A DNA stretch of 64,000 bases. Origin: Comamonadaceae bacterium ALPHA2B (GTDB lineage: Bacteria; Pseudomonadota; Gammaproteobacteria; Burkholderiales; Burkholderiaceae_C). The stretch lies in the NCBI GenBank assembly GCA_005503065.1, contig SCOE01000029.1:1-64000 (forward strand), in the 5' to 3' direction. The notes beneath the pieces are model-generated. The model had not been told where the DNA came from. It ran no database searches and saw nothing but the letters and a program-made list of their open reading frames with translations. This document shows, in pieces, positions 2,849 through 19,181 of this stretch (position 1 is the first letter of the stretch; the number at the start of each line of letters is the position of its first letter). The position numbers were made by a program, and so were the translations under genes.

Positions 2849-2907
2849 TCCTTCGACCTACGATCCAGCGATACATCGGGCGCCTGTGCGTTCGTCATCG
2901 CCAAGGC

Positions 2908-3156: not shown

Positions 3157-3180
3157 GGGCTTCCGTTGCCAGGCAGCGCC

Positions 3181-3753: not shown

Positions 3754-3790
3754 GGGACAATCCCGGGCCGGCGCACTTGCCGCTTTCCCG

Positions 3791-3853
3791 ATGTCCGACG
3801 CTCCCGCCTTTTCCGCAGACCGCCTGTCCGTCGCCCCGATGATGGATAGGTAA
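3791..3853 (+). pseudogene. dusA: 5' fragment of dusA (tRNA-dihydrouridine synthase A), cut by an insertion
   Basis: Twenty codons beginning MSDAPAFSADRLSVAPMMD are followed by Arg and a TAA stop. RLSVAPMMD-W-TDRHCR is the signature N-terminus of DusA, the flavoenzyme that reduces uridines to dihydrouridine in the tRNA D-loop. Here the match stops exactly after MMD, and the downstream bases (aggtaaaaatccct) do not continue the family sequence. The rest of dusA, about 310 codons, is absent from the window. This is the expected result of site-specific integration at the 5' end of dusA, where the element usually supplies a replacement 5' end at its far side. Confidence 0.82.
3833..3853 (+). other. 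dusA: Candidate left attachment junction (attL) of a dusA-integrated island
   Basis: The DNA encoding VAPMMD is the segment used as attB by dusA-specific integrases. Identity with a normal dusA ends at about 3850, so the crossover lies within or just before these bases. The partner attR, which should repeat this segment, is not in the window. It would lie beyond the ICE that interrupts the island. The exact core length cannot be fixed from one junction. Confidence 0.6.
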
Positions 3854-4024
3854 AAATCCCTAGACTCCATGCGGGTTGTGAGCGCGGTGTGTGCACAGGG
3901 TGTGCGCGGCGACTTCATGAGATATTGCGTTTGAGTTGGGACGGCGCAACGTTGCACGGTTCACAAGACCTCCTCTAAAACACTGTTGAAAACGGCGGTG
4001 GGGGAGGTGTTATGATCTCGTGCC

Positions 4025-4774
4025 ATGACGATCATCAGCACTCTTTCCGCCGAGTTCATCCTCGGCCTCATCGCCGAGCGCGACGAGAAGCGAGAGCTCG
4101 TCGATCGCCTTTCTGCTGAAATTGCCGCGCTGGAGAAGCGCATTGATGCGGCGATGCTATTCGCTCCTGCTGGATTCAACCCCGCAGCGCCGATGCCCGA
4201 TGTCGAGGGTCCTCCTCGGCCGCAGACGCGGAGTTCGCCGCTGTTCGTTCGCTGGAGCGGGGGCGACGACAAAACAACTTGGCGCGAAGCCATCCTTGGT
4301 GTCCTCGCAACCGCCGGCCGTGGGATGTCGCACAAGAACGTTGTCGCAATGGCGCGCGATCGCTATGTTCTGCCCCCGGTTCGAGATGGCGAGGAGAAAG
4401 CTTTCTACAACGCACTGTCCAAGCTGGTGCATTCGGGCCAAGTCGTCAAACACGGCAATCTGCTGTATTTGGCGTCCACCTATCGCGAGGCGGACAAAGC
4501 GGGCGCATTACCTGCCGTCGGTCCGACTGCACGACGCGTCGGTTCGTCAGCTGAGTTGGTTGCCGGATTACTCCGTGAGCACGCTGAAGGGCTCACTGGC
4601 CCACAGCTTCGAGATCACTTGCGCCGCGTTCCTGATGCTCCTAAGAGCCTTTGGGAGCATGCCCAATACGTCTACAACATCCTGGCACCGATGATCGGCT
4701 CGGGAGAGGTCGTGAAAAGCCAGGACGGCGTATACCGCCACAGTTCGCACCTCTCGGAGCAGGAGAAGACATGA
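4025..4774 (+). CDS. Coiled-coil protein with two winged-helix-like domains, 249 aa
   Basis: Residues about 1-45 form a charged coiled-coil-like helix (LIAERDEKRELVDRL), and residues 45-80 are a proline-rich linker. Two similar regions follow (about 85-155 and 175-245), each with the helix-turn-helix-wing pattern ending in a hairpin (SGQVVKHGNLLYL; SGEVVKSQDGVYR). This suggests DNA or RNA binding. The gene uses more A/T-rich codons than its neighbours and lies just inside the dusA junction, where islands often carry accessory genes. An AGGTGTTATG stretch precedes it. No named family is recognised. Confidence 0.65.
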   Translation: MTIISTLSAEFILGLIAERDEKRELVDRLSAEIAALEKRIDAAMLFAPAGFNPAAPMPDVEGPPRPQTRSSPLFVRWSGGDDKTTWREAILGVLATAGRGMSHKNVVAMARDRYVLPPVRDGEEKAFYNALSKLVHSGQVVKHGNLLYLASTYREADKAGALPAVGPTARRVGSSAELVAGLLREHAEGLTGPQLRDHLRRVPDAPKSLWEHAQYVYNILAPMIGSGEVVKSQDGVYRHSSHLSEQEKT

Positions 4775-4828
4775 GGAGATGATGCGCCTCCGGCAGACTG
4801 ACTGCCCTGCCGGAGAGAAAAGGAAGGA

Positions 4829-5090
4829 CCTCGATTCGCCCCGTCCCTTGCAAGACTTACGAATCGAGGCCCGTGGCAGACCCCTACCGGGGCCAGTCCC
4901 CGCTAACGACCCGGTCCAAGAGGCCCGGTGAAAGCGACCTCCGCCGTTGGCGCGGTGGAGGATCCGATGGTGACGTTCTTGCGGCCCTTGCGTGCCGTCC
5001 GAAGCGCTTCCACCACTCACGAAAGCGAGTGATGAGATTTTAGGTCTCAGGGGAATGCTTCGCAAGAAAGGGCCGCGCGTGATTCGGAGA
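4829..5090 (+). ncRNA. Candidate structured RNA or long structured leader
   Basis: Several helices can be drawn. There is a perfect 10-bp pair (4829-4838 with 4860-4869) and a 9-bp hairpin with one G-U pair (4938-4946 with 4953-4961). A 5-bp hairpin lies at 5014-5018/5027-5031, GAAGCGCTTC is a palindrome at about 5001-5010, and a longer-range pairing links GCGGCCCTT (4981-4989) with AAGGGCCGC near 5067-5076. No long reading frame explains the stretch. It precedes a small basic protein gene and a good terminator, so it may be a leader or a separate RNA. It matches no RNA family I can name. Confidence 0.35.
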
Positions 5091-5096
5091 TTCACC

Positions 5097-5219
5097 ATGG
5101 TGATCTGCTCCTACCCTCGCGCTGTGCACGTCGTCGCGTACCTCCGCCGCCGCTTCGGTCGGCTGGAGCGTGTTCGCGAACACTGCCGGAGCTACCCCCA
5201 TACCTTGCCGCTGTTCTGA
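5097..5219 (+). CDS. Small basic protein, 40 aa
   Basis: The frame from the ATG at 5097 encodes MVICSYPRAVHVVAYLRRRF and continues to HTLPLF, rich in arginine, histidine and aromatic residues. A GGAG sequence eight bases upstream favours this start over an in-frame ATG at 5055 and a GTG at 4992. A strong rho-independent terminator follows 45 bases after the stop, which supports a short transcription unit. Small Arg-rich proteins of this style occur on phages and plasmids; no function is proposed. Confidence 0.45.
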   Translation: MVICSYPRAVHVVAYLRRRFGRLERVREHCRSYPHTLPLF

Positions 5220-5263
5220 GCATCAGCGAGGTATCAAGTAGCACCAAATCTTCAACTGTTATG

Positions 5264-5303
5264 CGCCCCGGTCCCTGGAGGAGCCGGGGCGTTCGTCTTT
5301 TTG
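5264..5303 (+). terminator. Rho-independent terminator
   Basis: CGCCCCGG (5264-5271) pairs perfectly with CCGGGGCG (5284-5291) across a 12-base loop. The stem is followed at once by TTCGTCTTTTTG. The T-rich tail is on the plus strand, so it ends transcription coming from the 4829-5219 unit. Confidence 0.75.
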
Positions 5304-5442
5304 TGGATTGAAATGAGGCGGGTGGTGCCTTGCCATACCCAATGCATAGGAGGGCTGCGGGGAACCCCTGTGAGCCCAGCACCCGGCCCGTTCAGAACAT
5401 CGCGCTGCAGCCGTCTTGGCTGTTCACAATCGAGGAGAAGAC

Positions 5443-5607
5443 ATGGCAGGTGTTGGAACTACCGCAAAGACAGGGGAGAGGTGCCCGGAGAGCGGCATAT
5501 GGCAATCGATGGATGCACCATCGACCACTGCCCCGATTGCCAAAGGCAATGTGATGCCACCCCACAACGGCAAGGCAGTGACCTGGAAGCTCATCAAGCT
5601 AGCTTGA
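5443..5607 (+). CDS. YjzC-like small protein, 54 aa
   Basis: The protein begins MAGVGTTAKTGERCPESGIW and ends with KAVTWKLIKLA. The pattern TGE-(R/K)-CP-x-SG-xW near the start and IAKGNVMPP before a C-terminal TWxL is what I know from the YjzC-like family of tiny proteins, which have no assigned biochemical role. A GAGGAGAAG ribosome site precedes the ATG by four bases, so this start was preferred over the upstream ATG at 5416. It ends only 18 bases before the oppositely oriented phage operon, and it probably belongs to the island's accessory zone. Confidence 0.6.
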   Translation: MAGVGTTAKTGERCPESGIWQSMDAPSTTAPIAKGNVMPPHNGKAVTWKLIKLA

Positions 5608-5612
5608 GCGAA

Positions 5613-5642
5613 GGTTCGCGGTCGATCACTGCACCGCGAACC
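5613..5642 (-). terminator. Hairpin overlapping the end of the phage-like operon
   Basis: GGTTCGCGGT (5613-5622) and ACCGCGAACC (5633-5642) form a perfect 10-bp stem with a 10-base loop. The loop and one arm cover the stop codon of the cement-protein gene. No T-run follows on the minus strand, so it is either a weak terminator or an mRNA-end stabilising hairpin between two convergent genes. Confidence 0.45.
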
Positions 5643-6057
5643 CGCTCGCCCCGTACTGCTGGGCCTGCACGTCGCTGAGCATCAGCGCGGTGAAGGTGCC
5701 GGCGGTGAGCGTCGCAGTGGCCACCCGGTACACCACGCGCACGTAACGGCGCAGACCGGCGGGCAGGCGCGAGCGCACCAGGATCTTGGAAGCGGTCAGC
5801 GCGGCCGGCGCCAGGGCAGGCGTCAGCAGCTGCGCATCCGCCCAGCTCGAACCGTCCGCGGAGTCCTGCAGCACTACCTGCACGGTTGGCGAGCCGCCCG
5901 AGGTGACGCCTGCGCCGACGCGCACCATCACGTAGTGCCCGCCGCCCAGGTTGGCGTCGTAGGGCTGCCCGGTGTCGTAGGTGTTGGTCGACACGGTGTC
6001 GCCAATGGCCGTCACGGCCTGGGCCGCCGAAAGGGTCTGCTGCTGGTCGAGGATCAT
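5626..6057 (-). CDS. Bbp16-like phage capsid cement protein
   Basis: The 143-residue beta-rich protein begins MILDQQQTLSAAQAVTAIGD and contains GGHYVMVRVGAGVTSGGSPT and a C-terminal LRRYVRVVYRV strand. This is the pattern of the Bbp16 family, named from Bordetella phage BPP-1: proteins that sit on the capsid surface next to the major capsid gene. The ATG at 6057 was chosen from this conserved start; the frame is open much further upstream inside the neighbouring gene. It lies eight bases downstream of the large virion-type gene and is the last gene of the operon. The major capsid gene that should follow is missing. Confidence 0.75.
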   Translation of the reverse strand: MILDQQQTLSAAQAVTAIGDTVSTNTYDTGQPYDANLGGGHYVMVRVGAGVTSGGSPTVQVVLQDSADGSSWADAQLLTPALAPAALTASKILVRSRLPAGLRRYVRVVYRVATATLTAGTFTALMLSDVQAQQYGASGFAVQ

Positions 6058-6065
6058 GGTGGGTC

Positions 6066-9000
6066 CTATCGTGGTTCCTGGTAGCCGAACGCCAGCGCTG
6101 CCGGGTTCGAGGTCTTGCCCTCGTTGAGGGCTTGCGCACCGGTGACGGTGCGATTGATCTGTGCGGCGGGCAGGCCCAGGAGCGAGCCCACGACGTTCAC
6201 CGCGGCTTTGCGGAATGCGTCGTCGAACTCGCCCTGAGATGCCTGCTTTGCGAAGGTGCCGGTGTCGGCGATGAAGCGCAGGCCGGCGGGGCCTTGGTAG
6301 TCGCGCGAGTGGTCGGACAGGCCCGCGGCGGTCTTCGCGGCCTCGGCGAACTCGCGGCCCACCACGAACAAGCCGAAGAGGAACCCGAGCTGCGCGCCAG
6401 CCAGCTTCTTGGCCAGCTTGTTCCAGTCGTCGTCGCCCGCATCGCCAGGCGTGAGGGCGTCCTTCAACAGCTCGCCGAACACCGCAGGCACCACGAACAG
6501 CAGCGCCATGTCGGCGGCCGTCTTGGCCGCGTTCTGGTTGGTCATGCCCTGGGCAACGCCGAGGTTGAGCGCGGTGTTCATGAAGCTGTAGAACACGGTG
6601 AACAGCTTCTGCGCCGGTCCGCCGCGCTCGATGGCCGACAGGTCTTTCGTCTGGCCGCCGCCCTGGGCGTCGATCACCGCCTGGTCGGCGAGCGCGACAG
6701 CACGATCCTCGGCCTGGCCATCGGCCGTGGCCTTCTCGTAGGCGCCCAGCCACGTCGGCACGTCGACCGCCTGCTGGAATCGCATCATCAGCACGTAGGC
6801 CGAGGCGTTCAGGCGCTCGCGCGCTGCGGTCTGGCCCTGCACCCGGTTGCGCAGCTCGTTGAGCTCCCGGAAGCGCGTGCGGGCCCGGCTGGCCATGAAG
6901 TCGCTTTTCTCGCTCACCTCGCGGGTTTTCGCGATCGGCGCGCCGATGTACTGCAGCACGCCCTTGCCCACCCAGCCGGCGCCCACGCGCACGATCGACT
7001 GCGTGATGCCCAGAGGCTGCATGGCGGCAGACATGACGTTGAAGCCCAGGCCGGCGATGCTCACCCCGTAGCGCAGGCGGCTGAGGGCCTTGTCGATGGC
7101 CTCCTGGGAGGCAGCATCACCCGCGGCGACCGCATCGCGCCACGTCTTGAACTGGCGCACCACCTCGGGGCCGTAGGTCTTGCGGATTGCCTCGTCGATC
7201 GTCTGCGACCGCAGGAGACGGTTCGCATCGATCAGCCACTCGTGCCAGGCCAGGTCGTGGATCACGTCGTTCACGCCGCCATACATGCCGTGCAGTGTGT
7301 AGAGCAGCGGCCGGCCGGTGACTTCCTCGGCCCGGGCCTTGGTGAAGCTGCGGCGCGTGGTTGCCGCACCATAGGCGCCCTTGAGCTGGTCGCGCGCGGC
7401 CTCTGCGTCCGCATGCTCCTCGGCGCGCACGCTGGCGGCAGGGTCGTACTTCACCGGGTAGTAGCCGCCGCGCAGCGTGCCGGCGTTGGTCGTCACGACC
7501 GGCGTGGCCTCGATCCATTCCGGCCCCTTGCCGAACACCCGCAGCTCCTTGGCGGCGATCAGCGGGCGGTAGCTCTCGAAGTGGTCCCAGATGGCCTGCA
7601 CCGCGTGCCACTCCTGGGCGGTCATGCTGTCGAGGATGGGCTGCAGCTGCTCCATGGTCCAGCCTTCACCCCCGAGCAGGCGCTGCAGGTTGCTCGCGTT
7701 GCCGGTGTTCAGGGCGATGGCGATCACCGATTCCCGGTTGAAGCTGCGGCCGACGCTGGGGAAGAACTTGCCTTTGCCGCCGAGCTTGCCGCCCTTCATG
7801 AGCGGCGCGACGATCTCCGACAGCTTGGCGGTGGCCTCGGCGCGCATGCGCGTTTCCATGTCGCCGGCGGCGTTGGCCGGGCGGATGAAGCGCTCCCACA
7901 TCGGGCCGCCGTCCTTGCCGCCGTCGATGATCCGGGCCCAGGTGGCCGCCTTGATGTGCGCGGCGCCGAAGCCTTTCACCAGGGCGAACCACCGGCCAGC
8001 GTTGGTCGTCGGCGTGCGGGTGTTGGCGGTGCGGCCGCGCGCGTTGGCGGCGATGCTGTCTGCCAGCTCGGTGCGCACGGCGTCGAACTCGCGCTGGTCC
8101 TTGGCCGTCAGGAGCTTGTTCTTCAGCCGGCCCAGGTGCTCGATCTGCTTCACCGTGTCGACCAGGCCGCGGAACTCGTCGACGCTAAGGTCCTTCACCG
8201 ACACCTTCGCGGCCTCGTTGAGCAGGTAGGCCGGCACGTCCGGCTCGATGCCGAGCTCGCGCTGCGATTCCACCCACTGCATCAGGCTCTTGCGCTTGGC
8301 GATCTCGGTGAGGCTGGTGCTGCGGCGGATGTCGAAACGCTCGAGAATTTGCTCGATGTGGTCGCGGTATTCCACCGGCAGGTCGGCTTTCACCACCCGG
8401 TCGAGATACTTGGCACCGCGCTCGACTTCGCGCTGCGCGTCGGCTGCTGCGCGCGAGGCCTGCAGGTTCACCAGCTCATTGCGCTTGTGCAGCGCGACCT
8501 CATCGGCCTTGCCGATCGACTGCATGGCCAGGCGGGCGCTGCGGGCCGCTGCGGCGCTGTACTGCTTCGGCCGCAGGTCTTTGATCTTCTGGCGCCCGAT
8601 CACCTGGGCGGCGTAGTCCTTGGCGGCGCGGGCCATCACGTCGACGCGGCCCTGCCGGCCGTCGGTGGCGCGCATCGTGGCCTTCAGCTCGGTGGCCACC
8701 ACCCGGGCGCGCACGTCGTTGGCGATGGCGGCCTCGGCGGCGCGCTCCAGGGCCTGCGGGCTGGAAATGTCGCCGTAGCGCTCCAGCATGCGCTGATCCG
8801 TCAGCGCCTCGATCATCTGCTGCGGCGGCTCGGCCAGCGCCAGCGCCTTCACCAACTGGTCGCCCGAGGTGAAGCCGGGGAACATCTCGGACACGATATC
8901 CGGGTCCATGCCCGTCTCTTCGGCGGTCATGTGCCGTTCGGCCAGCGTCTCGTAGGCCTTGGCGTCCAGCGCCTTCACCAGGCTGGAGCGCAGGCGCCCC

Positions 9001-11774
9001 GACGACTGCACGGTATCGATCGACTCCTGGGTCTGGGTGCCCGGCAGGACGCGGTTCTCGCGGCCCGTCAGGAACTGCCAGGCCTGATAGATCGGCTCGG
9101 CCATCACCTCTTTGGTGACCTCGGTCTGCACCTCGGCGCGCAGGGCGTCCGCCTCGCGCGTGGCGGCTTTCAGCGCCTTCGCCTTGGCCTTGCTCATCCA
9201 GCGCATGTCGCCCAGCATCCGGCCGGCGAGCTGCGCGGTGGCCTCGTCGGTGGCGGCGCGGTTGAGCGCCTGATAGGCGGCGTATTCCTCGGCGGTCATG
9301 CCCGCCTGCTCGGCCGACTGGAAGAGGGGCCCAAGGTCACGCGCGGCCTCTGCGGCGCGGATCGCCTGGTCGCTGGCGAGCATGCGGTCCATGACCTGGC
9401 GCACCTCGTCGGTGAGGTTGCTGTTCAGGTTGGCGATCTGCTTGTAGATCGACACCAGCCACGCCCGGAAGCGCTGAAAGATGCTCTGCAGCTCGGTGCT
9501 GGGCGCCTGGCCTTCCATCAGGTAGCGCTCGAACGACCGCGCGAACTGCTCATGCGCGCCGCGCTTGGCATCGATATCGCTGCCGAGCCACTCGGCCAGA
9601 GCGGTGGTGTTCGGGCCGCCCTTGGTGCCGAACCAGGCGAGCAGGGTGTCCATGTCGGCGGCGATCTGCCGCTCGGCTTCGGTGATCACGTCGCCGTCGG
9701 CTTCGCGTCCGCGGATGCGTGCAGCGAGGTCCGCCTGAACCTCCAGGAAGAAATGGCCGCTTTCGTGCAGGAGCGAGGACAGGTCCGCGCCCTTCAGGAG
9801 CGAGATTACGCTGCGGCTCTGGGTGATGTCCCGGCCGAACGCGAGCTGTGCACGCGGGCCGGATGCTCTCTTTTTTGTAGCTGCTCGCCCAGGCGTGGCG
9901 GGCGCTGCGGCCTGATTCGGCTCACCATTGCCGGCCTGGTCCAAGCGCTGCGCCCCCGTGGCGGTGCTCGACGTGATGCCGAGCTGATAGCGCTGCAGGA
10001 ACTCGTCGGGCGACATGCCGGCGCGCGCGGCCTGGCTCTCGTAGAAGCTGCCGAGCATGGTGGCGTAGGCCTGATTTACCGACGCGGTAAACCGCCCGGC
10101 CGTCGCGAGCTGCTGCTCGAAATGCGCCCGGACGGCGCCGCTCGTCTGTTCCTGCTGCTGGGCCTGCACGCCGGCGCCCACAGCCTTCTCGACCTCCTGC
10201 TGCAGCGCCTCGCCCTGGTTGAGCAGGAACTGCGCGGCCTCGGCCTTGCTCATGGCGTCCGGCGACTCGCGCAGGTGCTCGAGCAGCGGCTGGGTGAGCT
10301 TCGGGTCTGCAGCCAGCAGCTCGGCCACTGGAATGCGGATGTCGGCGCCTGGCACGGTGTTCTCGGGCGTGAACTGCTCGGCCACCGACGGCGCGATGCG
10401 CGCGAGGGTCTGGGCATCGATGCCGCCCTGGTTCAGCACGTTGGCCAGGGTCTGCGCGTCGATGTAAAGCTCGGTCGGGGCCTTGCCGCCCTCGTTGGCG
10501 TCCGCCACCTGCTGCACGAAGTCGCGGAAGCTCTCGGGGTCGCGCTGGCGCAGCTTGCTCTCGGCCGCGGTTTTGGCCATGTCCTCGACGGTCTTGGCGG
10601 TCGTGGTGGCCGCCTCCGCCTGGCGCTGGATGCCGGCGGCGTTGTCCGCGGCGGTCTGCATCGCATGCACGATCGTGGTCTGGCCGCCCACGCCGATCAC
10701 CGTAGCGATGAGCGTCTGGGCCATGGCGCCCGGCCGCTCGGCCATGTAGTCGCCGAAGGTCTTGCTCTTGTTCTCGGGCAGCACGGCCCATTCGTTGAGA
10801 TCCTGCAGCGCCGTGGCGATCTGTTCGCCGGGCACCTCGGCCTTGGTCTGGTGCCAGAGCGTTTTCCACAGCGAGCTGCCGTTCTTCAGGTCGCCCAGCA
10901 GCTTGTGCATGGGCAGCTTCTCCGTCGCGTACTCGATGGCGGCCTGCGAAGCTGCGAAGGGGAGGGCGCGCTCCATCGGAACGCCTTGCTCGCGGGCTTG
11001 CTGGTAGGACTGCCCACCGGACTCGGCGGTCATGCCGGCCAGCGCCGCGGTGGCGCCAACAGGGCCGAGGAGCACCAACGGCAGGTACTTGAGGTTCTGG
11101 CCTGCCGACTGCACGCCGCTGGAGACGCCACCGGACACGATGCCGGCCTGCGCCGGCGCGATGCGCTGGGCCTCCGCTTCGGTGTCGCGGCCGATCTGTG
11201 CGAAGCCCTCGGCGATGCGTCGGTAGGGGTTGCCGCCTGCAACGCCTTGCTGCTCGGCTGTGCGCAGCCACGGGAACACCGCCTCCGCCGCTGCGGCGTT
11301 GACATCGGCACCGGCCCGGAAAAAGCCCGAGGCCGCGGTCGACGAGCGCAGGTAGACGCCGGTGTAGAGGTCGCGCAGCAGGCCGCCGGTGTCGTCGGCG
11401 CTGGTGACGTACCGGGTGGCCTTGGCCGTTGCGGTCAGCATGCCCTCCAGCGTGGTCAGCGACCCCGTGTCGTCGTGCGCCACGTCCGCGTTTCGCTGGT
11501 CGGTCAGCCAGGTGGCAGTGACCGGGTTCATGCGAGCGATCGCGCTCGCGTCGATGCCCTGGAATGCGGCCTGCTGGCGCACTGCGTCTGGCATGGCCCT
11601 GGCCGTGTCGATCGGCACGCCAGTGGCCGCCGCGATCTTCTGCAGCTCCACCTCATAGTCGGGCTTGCGCTCGACCGCGACGGAAAGAGTCGTGCGCAGG
11701 GCGGTTTCCGGCGAGGGCGCGGCGCCGGCCATGAAGCTGGAGACGGCGGCGTCGGCGTCGAACTGGTCAGCCAT
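6066..11774 (-). CDS. Giant polyvalent phage virion protein with zincin-like HESGH motif, 1902 aa
   Basis: This is the longest gene of the window. Its N-terminal half is helical and rich in Gln, Ala and Glu. An HESGH motif at about residue 669 fits the HExxH zinc-peptidase signature. The middle is strongly helical and charged, and the C-terminal third contains a hydrophobic stretch (about residues 1750-1830: LFVVPAVFGELL, LGFLFGLFVVG). The plan matches the large 'polyvalent' proteins of podovirus-like phages, which are packed in the head and ejected with the DNA. The start MADQFDAD at 11774 follows a plausible ribosome site. It overlaps the upstream gene by eight bases. Proteolytic activity is inferred from one motif. 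Confidence 0.72.
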   Translation of the reverse strand: MADQFDADAAVSSFMAGAAPSPETALRTTLSVAVERKPDYEVELQKIAAATGVPIDTARAMPDAVRQQAAFQGIDASAIARMNPVTATWLTDQRNADVAHDDTGSLTTLEGMLTATAKATRYVTSADDTGGLLRDLYTGVYLRSSTAASGFFRAGADVNAAAAEAVFPWLRTAEQQGVAGGNPYRRIAEGFAQIGRDTEAEAQRIAPAQAGIVSGGVSSGVQSAGQNLKYLPLVLLGPVGATAALAGMTAESGGQSYQQAREQGVPMERALPFAASQAAIEYATEKLPMHKLLGDLKNGSSLWKTLWHQTKAEVPGEQIATALQDLNEWAVLPENKSKTFGDYMAERPGAMAQTLIATVIGVGGQTTIVHAMQTAADNAAGIQRQAEAATTTAKTVEDMAKTAAESKLRQRDPESFRDFVQQVADANEGGKAPTELYIDAQTLANVLNQGGIDAQTLARIAPSVAEQFTPENTVPGADIRIPVAELLAADPKLTQPLLEHLRESPDAMSKAEAAQFLLNQGEALQQEVEKAVGAGVQAQQQEQTSGAVRAHFEQQLATAGRFTASVNQAYATMLGSFYESQAARAGMSPDEFLQRYQLGITSSTATGAQRLDQAGNGEPNQAAAPATPGRAATKKRASGPRAQLAFGRDITQSRSVISLLKGADLSSLLHESGHFFLEVQADLAARIRGREADGDVITEAERQIAADMDTLLAWFGTKGGPNTTALAEWLGSDIDAKRGAHEQFARSFERYLMEGQAPSTELQSIFQRFRAWLVSIYKQIANLNSNLTDEVRQVMDRMLASDQAIRAAEAARDLGPLFQSAEQAGMTAEEYAAYQALNRAATDEATAQLAGRMLGDMRWMSKAKAKALKAATREADALRAEVQTEVTKEVMAEPIYQAWQFLTGRENRVLPGTQTQESIDTVQSSGRLRSSLVKALDAKAYETLAERHMTAEETGMDPDIVSEMFPGFTSGDQLVKALALAEPPQQMIEALTDQRMLERYGDISSPQALERAAEAAIANDVRARVVATELKATMRATDGRQGRVDVMARAAKDYAAQVIGRQKIKDLRPKQYSAAAARSARLAMQSIGKADEVALHKRNELVNLQASRAAADAQREVERGAKYLDRVVKADLPVEYRDHIEQILERFDIRRSTSLTEIAKRKSLMQWVESQRELGIEPDVPAYLLNEAAKVSVKDLSVDEFRGLVDTVKQIEHLGRLKNKLLTAKDQREFDAVRTELADSIAANARGRTANTRTPTTNAGRWFALVKGFGAAHIKAATWARIIDGGKDGGPMWERFIRPANAAGDMETRMRAEATAKLSEIVAPLMKGGKLGGKGKFFPSVGRSFNRESVIAIALNTGNASNLQRLLGGEGWTMEQLQPILDSMTAQEWHAVQAIWDHFESYRPLIAAKELRVFGKGPEWIEATPVVTTNAGTLRGGYYPVKYDPAASVRAEEHADAEAARDQLKGAYGAATTRRSFTKARAEEVTGRPLLYTLHGMYGGVNDVIHDLAWHEWLIDANRLLRSQTIDEAIRKTYGPEVVRQFKTWRDAVAAGDAASQEAIDKALSRLRYGVSIAGLGFNVMSAAMQPLGITQSIVRVGAGWVGKGVLQYIGAPIAKTREVSEKSDFMASRARTRFRELNELRNRVQGQTAARERLNASAYVLMMRFQQAVDVPTWLGAYEKATADGQAEDRAVALADQAVIDAQGGGQTKDLSAIERGGPAQKLFTVFYSFMNTALNLGVAQGMTNQNAAKTAADMALLFVVPAVFGELLKDALTPGDAGDDDWNKLAKKLAGAQLGFLFGLFVVGREFAEAAKTAAGLSDHSRDYQGPAGLRFIADTGTFAKQASQGEFDDAFRKAAVNVVGSLLGLPAAQINRTVTGAQALNEGKTSNPAALAFGYQEPR

Positions 11775-12021
11775 TGGCCTCCTCGGTCTCAAGTCGGTGC
11801 AGCCGGCGCTCGGTCATCTTGTACGCAAGGCCGCCAGGTTCGAGGAGCGCCAGCCGCTCCCGCGCTTCGGCTGCGGTCTTGGGAAGGCCGGGGCCGGGGT
11901 TGTTGACACGCTCGGCGCGCAGCTTTCGCATGCGTTCGCAAAGGCCCACCAAGCCGGCCGCCTCATCCTTGATCTGTTCCAGGCGCTTGTTCAAGGCCGC
12001 GATGCCTGCGCGAATGCTCAT
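11767..12021 (-). CDS. Small coiled-coil phage protein, 84 aa
   Basis: The product begins MSIRAGIAALNKRLEQIKDE and is almost entirely charged helix, consistent with a coiled coil. It overlaps the DUF5681 gene upstream by four bases and the giant virion gene downstream by eight, the tight spacing of a translationally coupled phage operon. No domain is recognised; a role in virion assembly is inferred only from position. Confidence 0.6.
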   Translation of the reverse strand: MSIRAGIAALNKRLEQIKDEAAGLVGLCERMRKLRAERVNNPGPGLPKTAAEARERLALLEPGGLAYKMTERRLHRLETEEANG

Positions 12022-12416
12022 TTGGCGATCCTCTTCTTCAGTTCCTCGATCTCACGTGCCAGCTCATCCGACTCACGCACCCGCGCTGCCTGGCCCAGCC
12101 CGGAGAGGAGCTGCGCAGCGATGTCCGGCGCGAGCTGCCCTTCGGCTGCGGCCTTGATGACCATCTGCGCCTGCTCGGTGGGCGTGAGCGCTGCAGCGAC
12201 ACCGGGCAGGACCACCGGGGCCGCCTCTGGCTTGAGCGCCGGCAGGCCGCGCTCCAGCAGCGTGCGCGCGGCCAGCACGTCGCCGGCCTTGGCCTGCTCC
12301 ACCAGCTTGTTGACGATGGCCGGCAATTCCTTCTCGATGCCCTTGCGCAGCACAGTGCGGGCCGTGCTGCGTGGCCGGCCGCTCGGGTTTCCGCTCTGGC
12401 CCTTCTGAAACTTCAT
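12018..12416 (-). CDS. DUF5681-type phage protein, 132 aa
   Basis: The first residues, MKFQKGQSGNPSGRPRSTAR, contain the hallmark KGQSGNPxGRP of DUF5681 proteins, which are often encoded beside small-terminase or packaging genes in prophages. The rest is an Ala/Glu-rich helical body ending in a basic coiled coil (EIEELKKRIAK). The basic, glycine-containing N-terminus suggests nucleic-acid contact. It lies three bases from the gene upstream and overlaps the one downstream. No terminase large subunit is found near it, which is unusual for this family's context. Confidence 0.7.
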   Translation of the reverse strand: MKFQKGQSGNPSGRPRSTARTVLRKGIEKELPAIVNKLVEQAKAGDVLAARTLLERGLPALKPEAAPVVLPGVAAALTPTEQAQMVIKAAAEGQLAPDIAAQLLSGLGQAARVRESDELAREIEELKKRIAK

Positions 12417-12419
12417 CGA

Positions 12420-12866
12420 TCACTTGAGCTTGCCGGCCTTGCGCGCTTCCACCGCCCGGCGGGCGAGCGCTGCCACGACGCTGGGGTGCGACCCAAGCCC
12501 GGTGCTCTTGAGCTTCGCCAACAGCTTGGCGTCCGACTGGATGAGCTTGCGCGTGTCGGCGAGCACCTGGCCGGCGCTGTCCCCGTATTCCTGGCGCAGG
12601 TGTTCCTCGCTGCGAGTGGTCCAGCCTTGCACCTGCTCCTCGGTCACCTTGCCGCGCGCGGCGGTGGCCATGGCGTCGCCGAAGGCCTCGGCCTCGGTGG
12701 CGTTCAGGCCGTAGCGCTGGGCAAGCTGCGGCAGTTCCTGCGCGCTGGCCTTCGCCTGCTCGGGCGTGGCCAGGGTTGCGAGGTGCGCCTGCTCCAGCGC
12801 GCGCGTGGCGCTCTGGTAGATCTCGGTGCCCCCGTACAGCGTGGCTGCGGTGTCAGCGTCAGACAT
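12420..12866 (-). CDS. Helical phage hypothetical protein, 148 aa
   Basis: The acidic, alanine-rich helical protein begins MSDADTAATLYGG and ends in a basic tail (RRAVEARKAGKLK). An AGGAGG site six bases before the ATG at 12866 decides this start over an ATG two codons upstream. The composition resembles scaffolding or other minor structural proteins of phages, but I do not recognise a family. The gene overlaps the upstream coiled-coil gene by eight bases, so it belongs to the same operon. Confidence 0.6.
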   Translation of the reverse strand: MSDADTAATLYGGTEIYQSATRALEQAHLATLATPEQAKASAQELPQLAQRYGLNATEAEAFGDAMATAARGKVTEEQVQGWTTRSEEHLRQEYGDSAGQVLADTRKLIQSDAKLLAKLKSTGLGSHPSVVAALARRAVEARKAGKLK

Positions 12867-13530
12867 TTCCATCCTCCTGCGCTTCGATGGGTGCGAGCGC
12901 GCGGGCGATCTCGCGGTCTAGCGTGTCGGCGCACATGTCGGCGCGGCTGCGCGCCATCTGCGTCATGGACTGCTGTCGGGCGTCGGCATGCCCCTGGATA
13001 ACGCTGCGGATTTGCTCGACCAAGGGCAAGCGCGCACCGCCGTCGACCAAGTACGGGCTTGAGTGGCGCCGTTCGGCAGGGACGATGGCGCCCACGACCT
13101 TGGCATGCGCCTGGCCCGCACGCGCGTCGATCAGGTCGTAATCGGCCTTCAGCTCGACCAGCTTGGCCAGGCAGGCGTCCAGCTCTTTGGCCTTGGCGAT
13201 GCGCTCATTGGCGATGCGCTTCGCCGTGTCGGCCTCGTTGCGGATGGTGCGGGCGCGTTCCCGAATGCGGGACGCCTCGTCCAGCTTGCTCGCGTGCTCG
13301 GCGGCGCGCCGGTAGTCGTCCAGCTCCTCGCGGATGGCTCGAGTGCGCGAGCGCAGTTCGTCGCGCCGGGCGCGCAGATCGGCATTGCCCGGGTCGCGGG
13401 CCAGCTTCACAAGCAGGTCGTTGAGCTCATGCTCGTGTGCCGCAAGCTCGCGGGAGAGGCCACCGGTGACGGTGGCGATGTTGGCGCTGTGGGTGTTGGT
13501 CATGGTCGGCGTGGTTTCGACGATGACCAA
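12859..13530 (-). CDS. Long coiled-coil phage protein, about 223 aa
   Basis: After a short N-terminal segment the protein is mostly heptad-like charged helix from about residue 30 to 140 (ELAAHEHELNDLLVKLARD; RDELRSRTRAIREELDDY). A globular-looking C-terminal part follows, with SSPYLVDGGARLPLVEQIRS. The TTG at 13530 has a GAAGGA ribosome site and lies eight bases after the preceding stop. The first ATG, at 13503, lacks such a site but would give a protein only nine residues shorter. No family is recognised. Confidence 0.58.
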   Translation of the reverse strand: MVIVETTPTMTNTHSANIATVTGGLSRELAAHEHELNDLLVKLARDPGNADLRARRDELRSRTRAIREELDDYRRAAEHASKLDEASRIRERARTIRNEADTAKRIANERIAKAKELDACLAKLVELKADYDLIDARAGQAHAKVVGAIVPAERRHSSPYLVDGGARLPLVEQIRSVIQGHADARQQSMTQMARSRADMCADTLDREIARALAPIEAQEDGNV

Positions 13531-13537
13531 TGGTCCT

Positions 13538-14161
13538 TCAGGCCTCCCGATCTGCCGATAGAGGCGGAACGGAAGCGGAACAGAAGCGGAAAAAATCCGG
13601 GTCGTCCACGATCAGGAAGCCGGCCGCATAGGGGATGGTTGCAACCACCTTGCCCCCATCGCAGGATACGCGGAGGTTCGCGAGCACCGGTTGCAGGTCG
13701 GGGCAGACCTCGGCCATCTGCTTGCCGGCGTAGGCTAGGGCGTCCTGAATCTTGGCGCGGCGCTTCGCGAGGTCTTCGTCGTGCCGCAGATCGGTCACGT
13801 CGATGCGCACGCCGCGCTCAAGGAGGACGCGGCGCAGGAGGTCTGTCGCGTAGCGCGTTGTCGCGCTCGGACTCCACGCCCGTTCACATCCCAGCCGGCC
13901 AATGCGGAAGTGCGCGGCAGCTGAGCCTTCCACCTGGAGCCGCTGCACGATGATTGCGCGCCCTGATGCTGCCTGCCCTATCAGGCGGTCGCCGGTGCTC
14001 GCGAATATTTGCGCGTTCGGCTGAACCCGATTGCTCGCCCCTTGCTGAACTTGCTGTACCCCATAGGGTGGTACAGCAAGTTCAGCAGTGCTGGGGTTGC
14101 TGAAAACTGCTGATTCAGCAACTCCAGCAAGTCCAGCACCTGCAATTTTTTGCGCGTTCAT
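13538..14161 (-). CDS. Hypothetical phage protein whose 5' end carries an origin-like repeat cluster, 207 aa
   Basis: The start ATG overlaps the stop of the primase gene by four bases, so translation is coupled. The first 45 residues are low-complexity (Ala, Gly, Val, Gln; AELAVPPYGVQQVQQGAS) because the DNA there is a dense array of inverted repeats. The remaining 160 residues look globular (RRVLLERGVRIDVTDLRHDE; YAAGFLIVDDPDFFRF). The N-terminal part may exist only to accommodate DNA sites. I recognise no domain. A role alongside replication is inferred from its place next to the primase. Confidence 0.6.
   Translation of the reverse strand: MNAQKIAGAGLAGVAESAVFSNPSTAELAVPPYGVQQVQQGASNRVQPNAQIFASTGDRLIGQAASGRAIIVQRLQVEGSAAAHFRIGRLGCERAWSPSATTRYATDLLRRVLLERGVRIDVTDLRHDEDLAKRRAKIQDALAYAGKQMAEVCPDLQPVLANLRVSCDGGKVVATIPYAAGFLIVDDPDFFRFCSASVPPLSADREA
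14041..14140. repeat. Cluster of TNCAGCAAG units in inverted and direct order (candidate origin)
   Basis: About nine copies of TNCAGCAAG or its complement CTTGCTGNA lie within 100 bases, spaced mostly 9-10 bases apart. They create a 17-bp perfect inverted repeat (14044-14060 with 14070-14086, 9-base loop) and a second 8-bp one (14097-14104 with 14114-14121). The cluster is inside the gene immediately downstream of the primase-polymerase gene, a common place for a phage origin. It may instead be an operator or a translational control hairpin. Confidence 0.6.
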
Positions 14162-16143
14162 TGGTTCACCTTCACGAATGCGCCGGCCCGGGTGAGATAG
14201 CCGGCTTTCTCCAGCGCGTCGACCGCAGCGCGTGCGGCCTGCCTGCAGTTGGCCAGGCGGGCGCCTGGCTTGTCGCCGTGCAACTGCGCCGTGGCAGCTG
14301 TCACCAGCTCCTCGGTGGTGACCGAATCGCTCAGCGACCGCAGCGCCTCCAGCGCCTGAAGGACGGTTCGCTGATTGGCGTGCGCCGGCGGCCCGCGCCG
14401 CGCGGCCGGGCCCTCGATCGGCAGGGCCACGCAGGAGGTAATCGGCTTGCCGCGAGAGTCCTCGCGCACCGTCATCGTTTCCAGTCGGAACGGATAGCGG
14501 TCGCCTTCGCCACCGGTGTCCTTGGCCTTCACGATGGTGGCGCACCGGTACTCGCCCTCACGCTCGATGCAGATCGACGAGTTCACGCCGAACGGGATGC
14601 CCGACCAGCCGCGGGGCCCCTTCGCCATGTCCTTGCCGGTGTGCGATACCAGGACCACCATCGCCCCGGTGGCGCGGTGGATGGCCTCGCAGTTGGCCAA
14701 GGCCTTGCCCATGTCCTGAGCGCTGTTCTCGTCTGCGCCCGGCGTGACCTTGGCGAGGGTGTCGAGGAACACCACCGACAAGCCCTGGAGCGCGCGCAGG
14801 GCCGCGATGAGGTCCTGCACGTCTTGGGTGTCGAGGATGTTGGGAGGCGCCAGCAGCAGGTGAAGATCCGTCGAGGTCGCGTCGATCCCGTGGTGCTGGG
14901 CATAGGCCTGCGTGCGATCCGGGAACCGCGAGCCGCCCTCGGCCGCAACGTACGCCACCACGCCCTTCGTGGCCTCCAGGCCGCGCCACGCGGCACCGCG
15001 CGCGATCGACATGGCGAGGTCCAGCGCGAAAAATGACTTTCCGCTGCTGCCCGCTCCGTAGATCAAGGCCACCTCGGAGAAGGGGAGAACGTTCTCGATG
15101 GCCCACACTACCTCGGACGACTTTGCCTCGGAGAAGTGCACAAACTCGAAGCGCGCTGGCTTTGCTACAGAATTTATAGCCGGTTGCGCCCTATCCGCGG
15201 GCGCTGCGGCGGCATTTCCTTCACTTTCCGACACGTCCTCGAAATCGTCGACGGACGCCGCGCGCATTGCCGCCTTGGGCTTGGCCTTCACGCAGTGCTC
15301 GCGCCAGAGGTAGGCGAGGGCCTTCTCGTGGTCTTGCGCGCGGTGGTCCAGCGCGACCTCCATGGCGTGGTCGTTCGACGCAAGGATGCTCAACACCTCG
15401 TCGTCAGGCAAGCCGGCTTGATAGAGCGCGATACCGGCTGCGTGCAGGTCGCCCGAGCGATCCCGCCCATGCTCACCGTGCAGCAGGAAATTTCGAGTTG
15501 TCGTGCTCAGAGGTAGGGCGGCCACGTCGGGCAGCAGGAGGTCGTCCAGCAGGTCCGGCATCGGGTCAGGCGCAGATGCGACGGCGCGCCGTCCGATCCC
15601 GAAGTCCTCGCGCAGCTGGGCGAGTGCACCCGGCGCAAGCTCCCGAAGTTCGCTCGGCGCTCCGGGCAAAACGCGGCCGGTGAGCGTGAGGAACCTCCCG
15701 CCTTCGCCGCCGTATACCTCGATGCCAACCTCGTGATTCGTGCCATCAGCGGCTGACCCGGAAACGAAGATCCGCAGGCCGTGGCCACTCGGCGAGATCT
15801 CCGTGTAGCTCTGCAACTGATCGACGACGCGCTGGGCCCAAGGCGCGACCACGCCGTCGTCGACGCAGCGATCCAGATCGATGCCCACGATGCCGTGCGG
15901 GTTCGTCATTACATAGCCCAGCCCTGCAAACCTGTGGGGTTCCCGTTGGAAGGCCACAAGTGCGGCGTTGAATGAAAGCCACGATTCCGGCTTGTTGATC
16001 GAGAGGCCCAGCCCGGGCCGCTTGTCATACTTCCCGCGTTTGTTGTCCCACGTGGCTGCCCACGGCGCCCAGCGGTTCCGCGCTTTGAGGGCTTGCGGGA
16101 TGCTCGTGCCGCTGAAAGGGATCAGTGCCGGCCGATCACTCAT
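14158..16143 (-). CDS. Primase-polymerase / RecA-like ATPase replication protein
   Basis: The product is 661 residues. Residues about 10-170 resemble the archaeo-eukaryotic-type primase-polymerase domain of NrS-1-like phage enzymes, with the catalytic GIDLDRC acid pair near residue 88. A helical region follows (LPDDEVLSILASNDHAMEVA, about 225-290). A RecA/AAA_25 ATPase then has Walker A GAGSSGKS near residue 362 and Walker B VVFLDTLAK near 460. The C-terminal 80 residues look like a winged helix. It should prime and help unwind the element's own DNA. The ATG giving MSDRPALI was chosen; an upstream ATG adds five residues. Confidence 0.82.
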   Translation of the reverse strand: MSDRPALIPFSGTSIPQALKARNRWAPWAATWDNKRGKYDKRPGLGLSINKPESWLSFNAALVAFQREPHRFAGLGYVMTNPHGIVGIDLDRCVDDGVVAPWAQRVVDQLQSYTEISPSGHGLRIFVSGSAADGTNHEVGIEVYGGEGGRFLTLTGRVLPGAPSELRELAPGALAQLREDFGIGRRAVASAPDPMPDLLDDLLLPDVAALPLSTTTRNFLLHGEHGRDRSGDLHAAGIALYQAGLPDDEVLSILASNDHAMEVALDHRAQDHEKALAYLWREHCVKAKPKAAMRAASVDDFEDVSESEGNAAAAPADRAQPAINSVAKPARFEFVHFSEAKSSEVVWAIENVLPFSEVALIYGAGSSGKSFFALDLAMSIARGAAWRGLEATKGVVAYVAAEGGSRFPDRTQAYAQHHGIDATSTDLHLLLAPPNILDTQDVQDLIAALRALQGLSVVFLDTLAKVTPGADENSAQDMGKALANCEAIHRATGAMVVLVSHTGKDMAKGPRGWSGIPFGVNSSICIEREGEYRCATIVKAKDTGGEGDRYPFRLETMTVREDSRGKPITSCVALPIEGPAARRGPPAHANQRTVLQALEALRSLSDSVTTEELVTAATAQLHGDKPGARLANCRQAARAAVDALEKAGYLTRAGAFVKVNQ

Positions 16144-16224
16144 TGCTGACACCTCCACACGACGTATGGGGCAACTCTGCCGGCATAGGCAAGTGCGTCG
16201 AATTGAGATCGGATCCTGTGGTGG

Positions 16225-16482
16225 TCATTGGGTGCACTCCCAGGCGAGCGTGCGCAGCAACTGATGTGCGGCGCGTCGGCTGATATCAACGAAGAATTTC
16301 AACTCCGCACGGTGCGCCCGCAGGCGCCGCTCCAGGGCGGATGCGTCCACGCTCGGAAGTCGGCCGGACAAGGCGTCGACCAGGTCGTCAAGGCGCTCCG
16401 CTTGGCCCCAACGGTCGGCGCGCAGCCAGCGATGGAGTTCCGACAGCGGCAGGTCGTCGTCGCGTTCGTCGGCGTCAGTCAT
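16225..16482 (-). CDS. Small acidic hypothetical protein, 85 aa
   Basis: The helical protein begins MTDADERDDDLPLSELHRWL and ends RTLAWECTQ. The start was chosen at the first ATG preceded by a GAGG motif; the frame is open further upstream but crosses a hairpin and other genes. It lies between the HTH/small-protein pair and the primase gene in the same direction, so it is probably an early gene of the element. No family is recognised. Confidence 0.5.
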   Translation of the reverse strand: MTDADERDDDLPLSELHRWLRADRWGQAERLDDLVDALSGRLPSVDASALERRLRAHRAELKFFVDISRRAAHQLLRTLAWECTQ

Positions 16483-16574
16483 CGAGGCCTCGCCGAGGTT
16501 CGGCAAGGCCCTTGCGCGGCCGCTGGCGGCGCTGGATACTGAAGGCCTTGGGTAGTCGTAGAGAAAGCGCTTCG

Positions 16575-16610
16575 AACGGGCCTGGTCGTGCCACCGACCG
16601 GCCCGTTTTT
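16575..16610 (+). terminator. Terminator-like hairpin facing against the phage operon
   Basis: AACGGGCC (16575-16582) pairs with GGCCCGTT (16600-16607), extended by a TGGTCG/CGACC inner helix. The run TTTTTCTTT follows on the plus strand. It lies in a 131-base gap between two minus-strand genes, so as a terminator it would stop only antisense transcription. On the minus strand the same hairpin has no T-run. Confidence 0.55.
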
Positions 16611-16613
16611 CTT

Positions 16614-16829
16614 TCACGGCACATCGTGCACACCTCCCGTCTTTGCGAGTTCCTGCAGGCGCTGCATGGATGCCGCGTGCAGGGTGCGCGAGCCGCACAC
16701 CAGGCGCCAGCCGCCTGAGCAGCGCACCGGTGAGCAGGTGAAGCCGAAGCGCTCCAGCTTGCGCGTCAGCGAGGCCAGCAGGTGCGCCTCGGCGAGGTCT
16801 GCCGGGTCGAGCAGCTGCGGCGCGCTCAC
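16614..16829 (-). CDS. Small hypothetical protein, 71 aa
   Basis: The protein begins MSAPQLLDPADLAEAHLLAS, has a central FTCSPVRCSGGWRLVCGSRT stretch with three cysteines, and is short and compact. Its start overlaps the end of the HTH gene by four bases, indicating coupled translation. The three cysteines could bind a metal, but the spacing matches no motif I know. Confidence 0.52.
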   Translation of the reverse strand: MSAPQLLDPADLAEAHLLASLTRKLERFGFTCSPVRCSGGWRLVCGSRTLHAASMQRLQELAKTGGVHDVP

Positions 16830-17080
16830 AGCAGACCCTTCGCGTTGCCGGAAACGCGCTCACGCACACGGGCCTGCACGAAGTCCGCCACGGCTTGGCG
16901 GGGATACAGCACACGATGGCCGAGCCGCATATAGGCCGGCCCCTGGCCGCGCTTGCGCAATGCCTCTGCGGTCTTCGGCGTGTACTGGGTGAGCGCGAGG
17001 AAGTCCTCTTCGATGAAGCAATCCAAGCGGTCGGCCATCTGCCGAACGCGGTCGAGGTCAGCGGTGGATGCTGCGGTCAT
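16826..17080 (-). CDS. Helix-turn-helix regulator of the phage-like operon, 84 aa
   Basis: The small protein contains a MerR/excisionase-type winged helix-turn-helix. ALTQYTPKTAEALRKRGQGPAYMRLGHRVLYPRQAVADF follows the usual 'helix, turn, RxGxGPxYxRxGxRVxYxxxDLxxF' pattern. Such proteins act as excisionases or early-gene regulators in islands. It is the first gene of the minus-strand operon, so its promoter must lie in 17081-17400, close to the ICE end. The family call is good; whether it works as excisionase or transcription factor is unknown. Confidence 0.7.
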   Translation of the reverse strand: MTAASTADLDRVRQMADRLDCFIEEDFLALTQYTPKTAEALRKRGQGPAYMRLGHRVLYPRQAVADFVQARVRERVSGNAKGLL

Positions 17081-17398
17081 GGCGATCCTTCGAAGGACCG
17101 CCGATCAGGAAGAAGGGAAGGGCGGCCCAGGGTTGGGTGGATTCCGCCTCTGCGATCTCAAGCTTCTGCTTCCACCTGGCCGATTGATGACTGCGGGAAC
17201 AGAGCCATCGATTAAGTCCGCCAGGGGTTCACGGCGCATTGCGCGCCGAACGCTTCGAGGTCCTACCTCCGTCCGGTGAGTGTGGCACGGGCACCAAGCT
17301 TTGAACGCGCGCCCCGATCGCAACAGAGCACGCCCGAAAATGGTACACGCGGGTGAAGCGGCGGGCAACAAATTTGGCGATGCGTCGCAAGCGCGCCA
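17081..17398. other. Gene-free stretch between island operon and ICE end
   Basis: No convincing gene is seen in these 318 bases; frames that cross it are rich in Arg, Pro and Ser and have no good start. It should contain the promoter of the HTH-led phage operon, though no clear promoter pair stands out. If the ICE inserted at 17399-17406, this is the last remaining island DNA on this side and may be a fragment of an interrupted gene. Confidence 0.4.
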
Positions 17399-17406
17399 AT
17401 GAAAAA
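17399..17406 (-). other. TTTTTCAT: candidate ICE attachment core
   Basis: The minus strand reads TTTTTCAT, the 8-base core I recall for Tn4371-family elements. It lies 280 bases beyond the last ICE gene, where the element end is expected. The same octamer also occurs by chance at 23290-23297 inside a start codon region, so the match alone is weak. The other end of the element lies outside the window. Confidence 0.45.
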
Positions 17407-17615
17407 TGTCCGCTGTCAAGTCCTTCATTCAGACATGCAGTGGGGAAAAAGCTCTTACAGGGCAATAGGTTAGGCTAGATTTCAGCCGCTGAGTGCTCTT
17501 GCTGCTTTTCGAGCTAGGTGCTGCATAGGCGCTTCGCGGCGGTAAGCGTGGGGGCGCCGCGGCGGGCAAGATCGCACCATCATAGTCTCGCCCTGCCGCA
17601 AGCCCCGTCAAAAGC

Positions 17616-17643
17616 GAAAGCGCAGTCAGTGGACTGCGCTTTC
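17616..17643 (-). terminator. Strong hairpin after the trb operon
   Basis: GAAAGCGCAGTC (17616-17627) and GACTGCGCTTTC (17632-17643) form a perfect 12-bp stem with a 4-base loop. On the minus strand it is followed by GCTTTTGAC, a short T-run. It is 44 bases past the stop of the last trb-operon gene and fits as that operon's terminator. Confidence 0.6.
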
Positions 17644-17686
17644 ATCGTGAAGGGGTAGCGGATGCGTCCACATCGTCAACCCTACT

Positions 17687-19179: not shown

Positions 19180-19181
19180 GG

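Follow-up and report, generated by a model that had tools for sequence, protein, structure and literature searches.

What is an island that carries replication genes and virion proteins of a phage, but no genes for the phage head itself? This question is raised by positions 5626 to 17080 of a 64,000-nucleotide stretch of Comamonadaceae bacterium ALPHA2B (contig SCOE01000029.1, positions 1 to 64,000; hereafter the window), where co-directional genes with open frames are aligned on the minus strand. A first-pass annotation had preferred a satellite to a decayed prophage. Our analysis supports this preference: with a probability of roughly 0.7, the element is an integrated satellite of BPP-1-like podophages that belongs to a new family. 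The left boundary, the place of the integrase and the recurrence of the gene order had to be revised.

Phage-related genes of the island

The open reading frames (ORFs) of 5626–17080 on the minus strand were listed, translated and scanned with Pfam and PHROG, the Pfam scan covering 10 window proteins. The helix-turn-helix (HTH) regulator, primase/ATPase, DUF5681 protein, giant protein and cement protein that had been read from the letters are each present with an open frame and with Pfam, PHROG or PDB matches, and the frames are indeed intact over 11 kb. The giant gene (6066..11774, minus strand) encodes a Bbp10-like LPD22 protein of 1902 amino acids (aa), a presumed ejection or polyvalent protein (phrog_9880, 1558.8 bits). 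Counted from the ATG at 11774, 97% of it aligns to Bbp10 of phage BPP-1 with 53.5% identity. The adjacent gene (5626..6057, minus strand) encodes a cement, or decoration, protein of the Bbp16 family with 143 aa (PF21190, 1.8e-21), which matches chain H of PDB entry 3J4U, the "cementing protein" of BPP-1 (E = 6.5e-15), and 8CJZ_B (6.8e-10). Because the Bbp16 domain occupies the last part of a 375-aa ORF reaching to 6753, the gene is assigned to 5626–6057, and the longer version results from taking the first start codon as the beginning of the gene. Bbp16 is described in the accessible text of PMC3863775 as a jellyroll cement protein whose deletion abolishes infectious BPP-1.

The transcription order in BPP-1 is small terminase (TerS), large terminase (TerL), portal, bbp18, the major capsid protein (MCP) gene bbp17, cement gene bbp16, tail genes, bbp11, bbp10 and bbp9. 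In the window, the giant is followed by the cement gene and then by sequence with no recognised phage genes, which places cement on the opposite side of bbp10. On viral contigs, bbp9 follows the giant in all 20 loci found with the giant, and cement follows the MCP gene in all 17 loci found with cement. In a wider search that kept the best 80 of 528 relatives (79 loci), 78 of the 79 giant loci carry one or more of portal, MCP, TerL, bbp13, bbp14 and bbp9, with a satellite marker in none of these 78. Giant matches occur in 16 genomes; 14 were inspected for context (G262 and G209 were left out), of which three are satellite-like (the window, G016 and G145), ten phage-like and one, G556, was left unassigned. 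In G556 (L211), BPP-1 head genes are absent from the 9 kb upstream of a 2451-aa giant, and pieces resembling bbp9 and bbp19 lie downstream of it; the locus may be a remnant or another variant.

The island has replication genes of its own. A 666-aa protein combines a primase with an AAA_25 helicase (14158..16158, minus strand; AAA_25, 2.8e-36; PHROG DNA primase, 3.1e-31), and an iteron/hairpin cluster at 14043..14138 is a candidate replication origin. The origin-like repeat cluster had been noted in the first reading and is confirmed: it consists of four iterons (TGCTGAACTTGCTG / CAGCAASTYCAGCA) with an 18-nt perfect stem among them. One other perfect hairpin (stem of at least 14, loop of 3–15) exists in the 64 kb, at 62481–62513, with a 14-bp stem and a 5-nt loop. 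Relatives of the primase on viral contigs (44–47% identity) precede TerS, portal or other BPP-1-like head genes wherever the contig reaches that far. The primase scan of viral contigs gave 59 loci, with the giant in none and cement in one (L102, within a phage head block), and that of genome contigs gave 21 loci, with the other genes of the window in none.

Related islands

Islands with a giant and without capsid genes recur. The one in G016 (L164) is bounded by 17-bp repeats at 3343, the 3' end of a tRNA-Ser gene, and 18079, 14,736 bp apart. It encodes an integrase, AlpA, a replication-like HTH protein, an IstB/DnaC-like ATPase, orf161, orf238, an HTH protein and DUF5681, followed by a 1919-aa giant and orf292. 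The viral contig IMG/VR 3300028845_000077 (L207/L220; labelled 726 in the trees) has an exact direct terminal repeat of 141 bp and thus represents a circle of 16,357 bp. This circle carries an integrase, an AlpA-like protein, a replication protein, a DnaC-like ATPase, orf161, orf238, orf150, cement and DUF5681, as well as Bbp11 and a giant of 1864 aa. The G145 island (L159/L160) is defined by 20-bp repeats at a tRNA-Lys gene, 21,294 bp apart, and contains an integrase, an AAA_25 protein, the SLT protein Bbp11, a 2308-aa giant and an HTH/PIN pair. Next to the tRNA gene stand a DUF4224 protein and a 346-aa ORF that looks recombinase-like by eye and has no Pfam match.

Two further loci share other parts of the set. 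G025 (L325) has an integrase match, primase, orf161, cement (2.8e-17) and orf150, with no giant; a weak 15-bp repeat at a tRNA-Ser gene suggests an island of 12.5 kb. G142 (L196, 807–11389) has an integrase match, primase, orf150, DUF5681 and TerL (phrog_2, 1.1e-40), and no head gene was found among the six ORFs scanned. The G142 locus is possibly a satellite with a large terminase of its own. Searches with orf161 returned only the known circle among viral contigs, and two of the 399 family genomes (G016 and G025).

Homologous islands with a terminase-portal-capsid set at the 5626 end, which would have indicated a simple deletion in the window, were looked for and not found; G016, the circle and G145 all lack the set. 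The proposed recurring unit of attL, cement, polyvalent protein, primase, HTH regulator and integrase holds in part: capsid-less islands with a giant do recur, but that gene order was not seen again, and in the circle cement lies upstream of DUF5681.

Core head and packaging genes

Five elements (the window, G016, the circle, G145 and G025), a stretch of contig C3 of the window's own genome and five controls were scanned with profiles of 22 BPP-1 families. The absence of core head genes, claimed on first reading, is borne out: MCP, portal, TerL, TerS, bbp9, bbp12, bbp13, bbp14 and bbp19 are matched in none of the five elements. MCP and portal were recovered in all five controls and TerL in one of them, since the other control stretches start downstream of TerL; a highly divergent TerL might escape the scan. 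The profiles of the BPP-1 polymerase (bbp42) and helicase (bbp47) also have no match in the elements. The elements thus have neither the TerS-TerL-portal-MCP-tail block of a BPP-1-like prophage nor, with a BPP-1-type MCP in 0/5, the own capsid genes of capsid-forming phage-inducible chromosomal islands (cf-PICIs). Positive matches were obtained for Bbp10 (4/5 elements), Bbp16 (3/5), the bbp29 primase (3/5), Bbp11 (2/5) and the integrase (4/5, plus C3), while the Bbp18 profile gave a weak match in one element, to orf150 of the window (0.0023). The bbp10 and bbp11 profiles may hold short satellite fragments, so that these positives are not fully independent; earlier searches agreed with them.

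A scaffold-like protein and a candidate packaging protein

The first-pass annotation had not recognised orf150 (12420..12872, minus strand), which appears by homology to be scaffold-like and is a candidate capsid-size redirector. An alignment of orf150 from the window, the circle, G142 and G025 matches 52 Bbp18 sequences with an HHalign probability of 96.98% (E = 1.1e-10, 103 columns), and the aligned region belongs to the C-terminal half of Bbp18. None of the remaining 71 comparisons in this matrix reached 2%, with orf238, orf223, orf161, orf213, orf84, orf91 and DUF5681 each below 2% against nine BPP-1 families. As controls, 40 column shuffles reached at most 5.55%, the reversed alignment gave 0.78%, and leave-one-out alignments kept at least 96.5. 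Single orf150 sequences scored 86.7 (window), 80.8, 66.9 and 38.2% against Bbp18. At the cut-off, orf150 matches no curated family, PHROG giving a weak phrog_458 "protease" hit (0.021), and a Foldseek search of BFVD with its model (pLDDT 67) returned no match at E ≤ 0.001. Bbp18 itself is annotated as a "protease"; we infer a scaffold from its low-complexity N-terminus, its conserved C-terminal half and its place directly before the MCP gene.

The gene next to orf150 encodes a DUF5681 protein of 132 aa (12018..12416, minus strand; PF18932, 9.1e-11), a candidate small-terminase-like packaging protein. In G142, the DUF5681 gene directly precedes the TerL gene. HHalign found no match between DUF5681 and the BPP-1 TerS profile, and scans of viral contigs with the orf150 of the window alone or with DUF5681 alone confirmed nothing. 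DUF5681 is mentioned for a Salmonella phage in the literature text accessible to us. Islands with DUF5681 and without a giant are seen at L182, L186, L190 and L191, bounded at tRNA genes by repeats that are 17 to 87 bp long; repeats were clear in four of the eight such islands tested, and Prim-Pol or DnaB genes are present in L182 and L190.

Evolution of the giants

A tree of 102 giants was built, and then a careful tree of 23 rows. In the larger tree, the four satellite giants fall in two places (2 label changes vs 4.0 in shuffles, none of 500 as low). The 23-row tree pairs the window with G145 (98/97) and G016 with the circle (100/100), 7 of 500 shuffles being as low, and rejects a single clade for all four (p-AU 6.7e-6). 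This distribution over two clades indicates, as judged from the trees, that giants were captured at least twice. Between the G016 and circle giants, nonsynonymous divergence (dN) is 0.114 and synonymous divergence (dS) 1.39 over 1864 codons, a ratio consistent with purifying selection. The window and G145 giants (47% identity, dS 0.89, dN 0.52) are too diverged for such use.

The G145 giant (L159 10483–17409) has GNAT acetyltransferase and LPD3 domains inserted, and BPP-1 Bbp10 has a PBECR1 nuclease domain similarly placed. Relatives of the G016 giant (32–33%) are also encoded in the plasmid records NZ_CP026419.1 and NZ_CP104448.1, Acinetobacter included.

Boundaries and the conjugative neighbour

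Directly around 5626 and 17080, the two sides share no repeat of more than 12 bp. Comparison with congeneric genomes located attL at 3821..3847, in the 5' end of dusA, where 27 bp are identical to attR on contig C3 (9998–10024). The left boundary of 5626 was thus wrong, and the island is larger. The att sequence on C3 reads as the start of dusA, the gene being named by eye from the sequence; dusA is described as a known integration site of islands in the available text of PMC4482086. Window positions 2200–5600 are partly matched in all 15 genus genomes searched (own included), and the five longest matches of relatives end near 3850–3863. Loci of nine relatives, out of 14 fetched, were compared for their flanks: the left flank of the window adjoins the sequence from C3 9991 onward in six (L308, L309, L312–L315) and does not in L310, L311 and L316.

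A tyrosine integrase of 349 aa (Phage_integrase, 9.3e-22) lies beside attR on C3, and none was found within the window's own contig; the integrase is therefore not at the HTH side of the island on this contig, where it had been expected. A PF00589 search of the genome gave 14 places, and among the seven stretches examined, which hold nine of them, only C3 fits, via its flank. With this presumed join of the contigs, the island in the window is a discrete element with att repeats and an integrase, as G016 and G145 are directly. Near the dusA integrase, a second integrase, a YhcG/DUF1016 nuclease and an HTH gene (L303, C3 4712–7599) form a possible defence module.

Conjugative genes start about 600 bp from the HTH gene, with DUF2274 at 17687 and TrbI at 17917. 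They belong to a Trb-type conjugative element from 17687 with DUF2274, TrbI, CagX, a DUF3363 relaxase-like protein, DUF2840 and RovC, which extends to 59 kb or further; position 67307 is the last of the contig. The satellite was probably split by this element, with about 13.8 kb on the window side and about 2.3 kb on the C3 side, the cut points being estimated. The window copy, probably split at a later time, may now be immobile. Between 17687 and 59180, the conjugative element also carries cargo for acyl-CoA catabolism and transport: acyl-CoA dehydrogenase, thiolase, CoA transferase, AMP-binding enzyme and enoyl-CoA hydratase genes, a GST-like gene and parts of a branched-chain transporter.

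Weighing the satellite against other explanations

Several observations weigh against a satellite. The integrase of the circle is split over two frames. Cement and orf150 were not detected in G016 and G145; the latter also lacks DUF5681, and its 21.3 kb exceed a simple T=4 estimate. Relatives of orf223, orf213, orf84 and orf91 were not detected in the compared elements, and Foldseek found no PDB match for the DUF5681 model (pLDDT 67) at E ≤ 0.001. A search for relatives of the BPP-1 MCP in the window's genome (G000), G016, G145, G142 and G217, made without a positive control, returned none. Among the viral giants examined (the 20 loci, and the 79 from the best 80 of 528), L207 is the only satellite-like locus. 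The joining of window contig C21, conjugative element and C3 is deduced from the flanks rather than assembled. The window and G145 giants may represent separate captures from an unsampled phage branch, and because both are deeply diverged, their pairing alone is no proof of one capture. Finally, the genome relatives of the primase in G276 (52%) and G197 (47%) sit in prophages with no BPP-1 head-gene matches, and for this reason the primase does not fix the type of helper.

Of the rival explanations, a decayed BPP-1-like prophage survives best: head and tail genes would have been lost by deletion and rearrangement, with the long frames not yet decayed. Such an origin would account for the giant and cement of BPP-1-like phages, for viral primase relatives in the same phages, for the lack of an integrase on the window's own contig beside a conjugative element, and for a gene order that is unique so far, with no second copy. 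We nevertheless regard it as unlikely, given that cement lies downstream of the giant, opposite to BPP-1, that the giant frame is open over 1902 aa, and that DUF5681 and orf150 occupy the place of the TerS-to-Bbp11 genes. Elements of this class are moreover found again, both as islands between repeats and as a circle. The satellite giants pair among themselves and not each with a phage of its own, and in the G016-circle clade dN is low compared with dS. A simple internal deletion within a prophage was also judged unlikely, given the misplacement of cement relative to the giant and the satellite type of the genes in between.

Less probable still is a phage-sabotage (defence) island that makes no particle, in which cement, giant and scaffold-like protein poison the assembly of incoming BPP-1-like phages. 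Some satellites interfere with helper reproduction, according to the accessible text of PMC10803314, and a shortened scaffold and stray decoration proteins could be dominant negatives. The circular form and the repeat-bounded islands imply mobility, however, and a full-length protein of 1.9 kaa whose dN is low compared with dS would be costly as a mere decoy. That the island is cargo of the adjacent Trb-type element, its giant a polyvalent effector delivered by conjugation, is very improbable: large polyvalent proteins do occur in conjugative elements as well as in phages, and the conjugative genes are close by, but among the ORFs of the related islands (L164, L159/L160, L220) no gene for conjugation stood out, a dusA att pair and an integrase belong to the island itself, and it is not evident what purpose cement or a scaffold-like protein would serve in conjugation.

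Proposed mechanism

A life cycle for the satellite can be proposed from the observed gene families and their order, the repeats, the circular relative, the low dN/dS and the homology of orf150 to the Bbp18 tail. The element would excise and replicate with its own integrase, primase-helicase and origin. Lacking its own shell, portal and motor, it would have to rely on a phage for them, and a BPP-1-like podophage is the most likely provider. Based on its homology, orf150 may bind the helper MCP and bias assembly towards smaller heads, which the cement protein, given its family, would stabilise. The DUF5681 protein, in one case encoded beside TerL, may mark satellite DNA for the helper large terminase. 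The Bbp10-like giant, joined in two relatives by the transglycosylase Bbp11, would travel inside the virion and be ejected together with the DNA.

With T=7 derived from the 7+7 asymmetric unit given for BPP-1 in the available text of PMC3863775, (4/7)^1.5 of its 42.5-kb genome amounts to about 18 kb. The sizes of G016 (14.7 kb), the circle (16.4 kb) and the window (about 16 kb) fit this value loosely, and that of G145 (21.3 kb) does not. A typical known satellite has about one third of the genome size of its helper, according to the part of PMC10803314 consulted.

We propose tentatively, at somewhat below even odds, that these elements are hybrid-virion satellites with a scaffold mimic, a cement protein of their own and a giant that, with or without a transglycosylase of the satellite, replaces the ejection protein of the helper, and that they arose at least twice from different BPP-1-like branches. 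The satellites known so far steal the head, tail and motor of a phage, and in some cases they also change the head's size or decoration. A hybrid virion would let the satellite control what enters the next cell with its own DNA, and a satellite that supplies an ejected protein would show that the entry step, too, is open to takeover. The combination of a giant with cement, a scaffold-like protein or DUF5681, seen at least twice, predicts that these are virion parts worth owning for a satellite, and the LPD22 giants would gain a natural minimal context for functional tests.

Comparison with known systems

The families that the element shares with BPP-1 and Rauchvirus are those of the giant (Bbp10), cement (Bbp16), the scaffold-like domain (Bbp18) and, in two of the related elements, Bbp11, and the viral-contig relatives of its primase occur in the same phages; it differs from them in lacking matches to terminase, portal, MCP, tail genes (bbp9, 12, 13, 14), bbp42 and bbp47. 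The likeness to Staphylococcus aureus pathogenicity islands (SaPIs) and other PICIs consists of an integrase, genes for replication, a possible counterpart of TerS and a small protein that resembles the C-terminal part of what is presumed to be a scaffold. According to PMC5644958, CpmB of SaPI1 has the capsid-binding C-terminal RIIK region in common with the helper scaffold and helps to make small capsids. The same text, as far as available, describes no cement or ejection protein for SaPIs. Scanning the window proteins with Pfam and PHROG turned up no SaPI gene family.

P4 is likewise a satellite that brings its own capsid protein, Psu (PMC11718236, in the accessible part), but the cement protein here belongs to a different family. 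The psu, sid and delta families were not found among the 10 window proteins scanned with Pfam, a scan in which dedicated P4 models were not run. P4 is not known to carry an ejection protein. Phage-inducible chromosomal minimalist islands (PICMIs) resemble the element as small integrated satellites with excision and replication genes. In the available text of PMC10803314, PICMIs lie next to fis and have no capsid-remodelling or identifiable packaging genes; the element has cement and orf150, and its att site is in dusA. Mulch and Flayer are also satellites that encode virion parts, yet in the part of PMC10690885 at hand they are described as providing the machinery for encapsidation and missing key genes for replication, which is the opposite of what is seen here. 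In the literature found, where preprints and most subscription journals fell outside the search, no satellite was described with cement, a Bbp10-type giant and a Bbp18-type scaffold mimic; the family appears undescribed, which is not proof of novelty.

Remaining features of the island

Between attL and the cement gene, a 249-aa ORF on the plus strand (4025..4774) has no Pfam family over the cut-off. An Rfam scan of window positions 1–20000 gave no match. The other genes are on the minus strand. orf84 (11767..12021; 84 aa) and orf91 (16225..16497) are those for which the search for relatives has been given above. orf213 (13538..14179) belongs to no Pfam or PHROG family, and since its 5' part overlaps the iterons, its start may lie further downstream. 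The HTH gene at 16826..17080 encodes an 84-aa excisionase- or regulator-like protein (HTH_17, 5.3e-5, under the Pfam cut-off; phrog_66, 0.016). orf223 (12859..13530), whose start codon is uncertain, is charged and coiled-coil-like by eye; the orf238 of G016 and of the circle holds a comparable place, with no sequence similarity detected between the two proteins and orf223.

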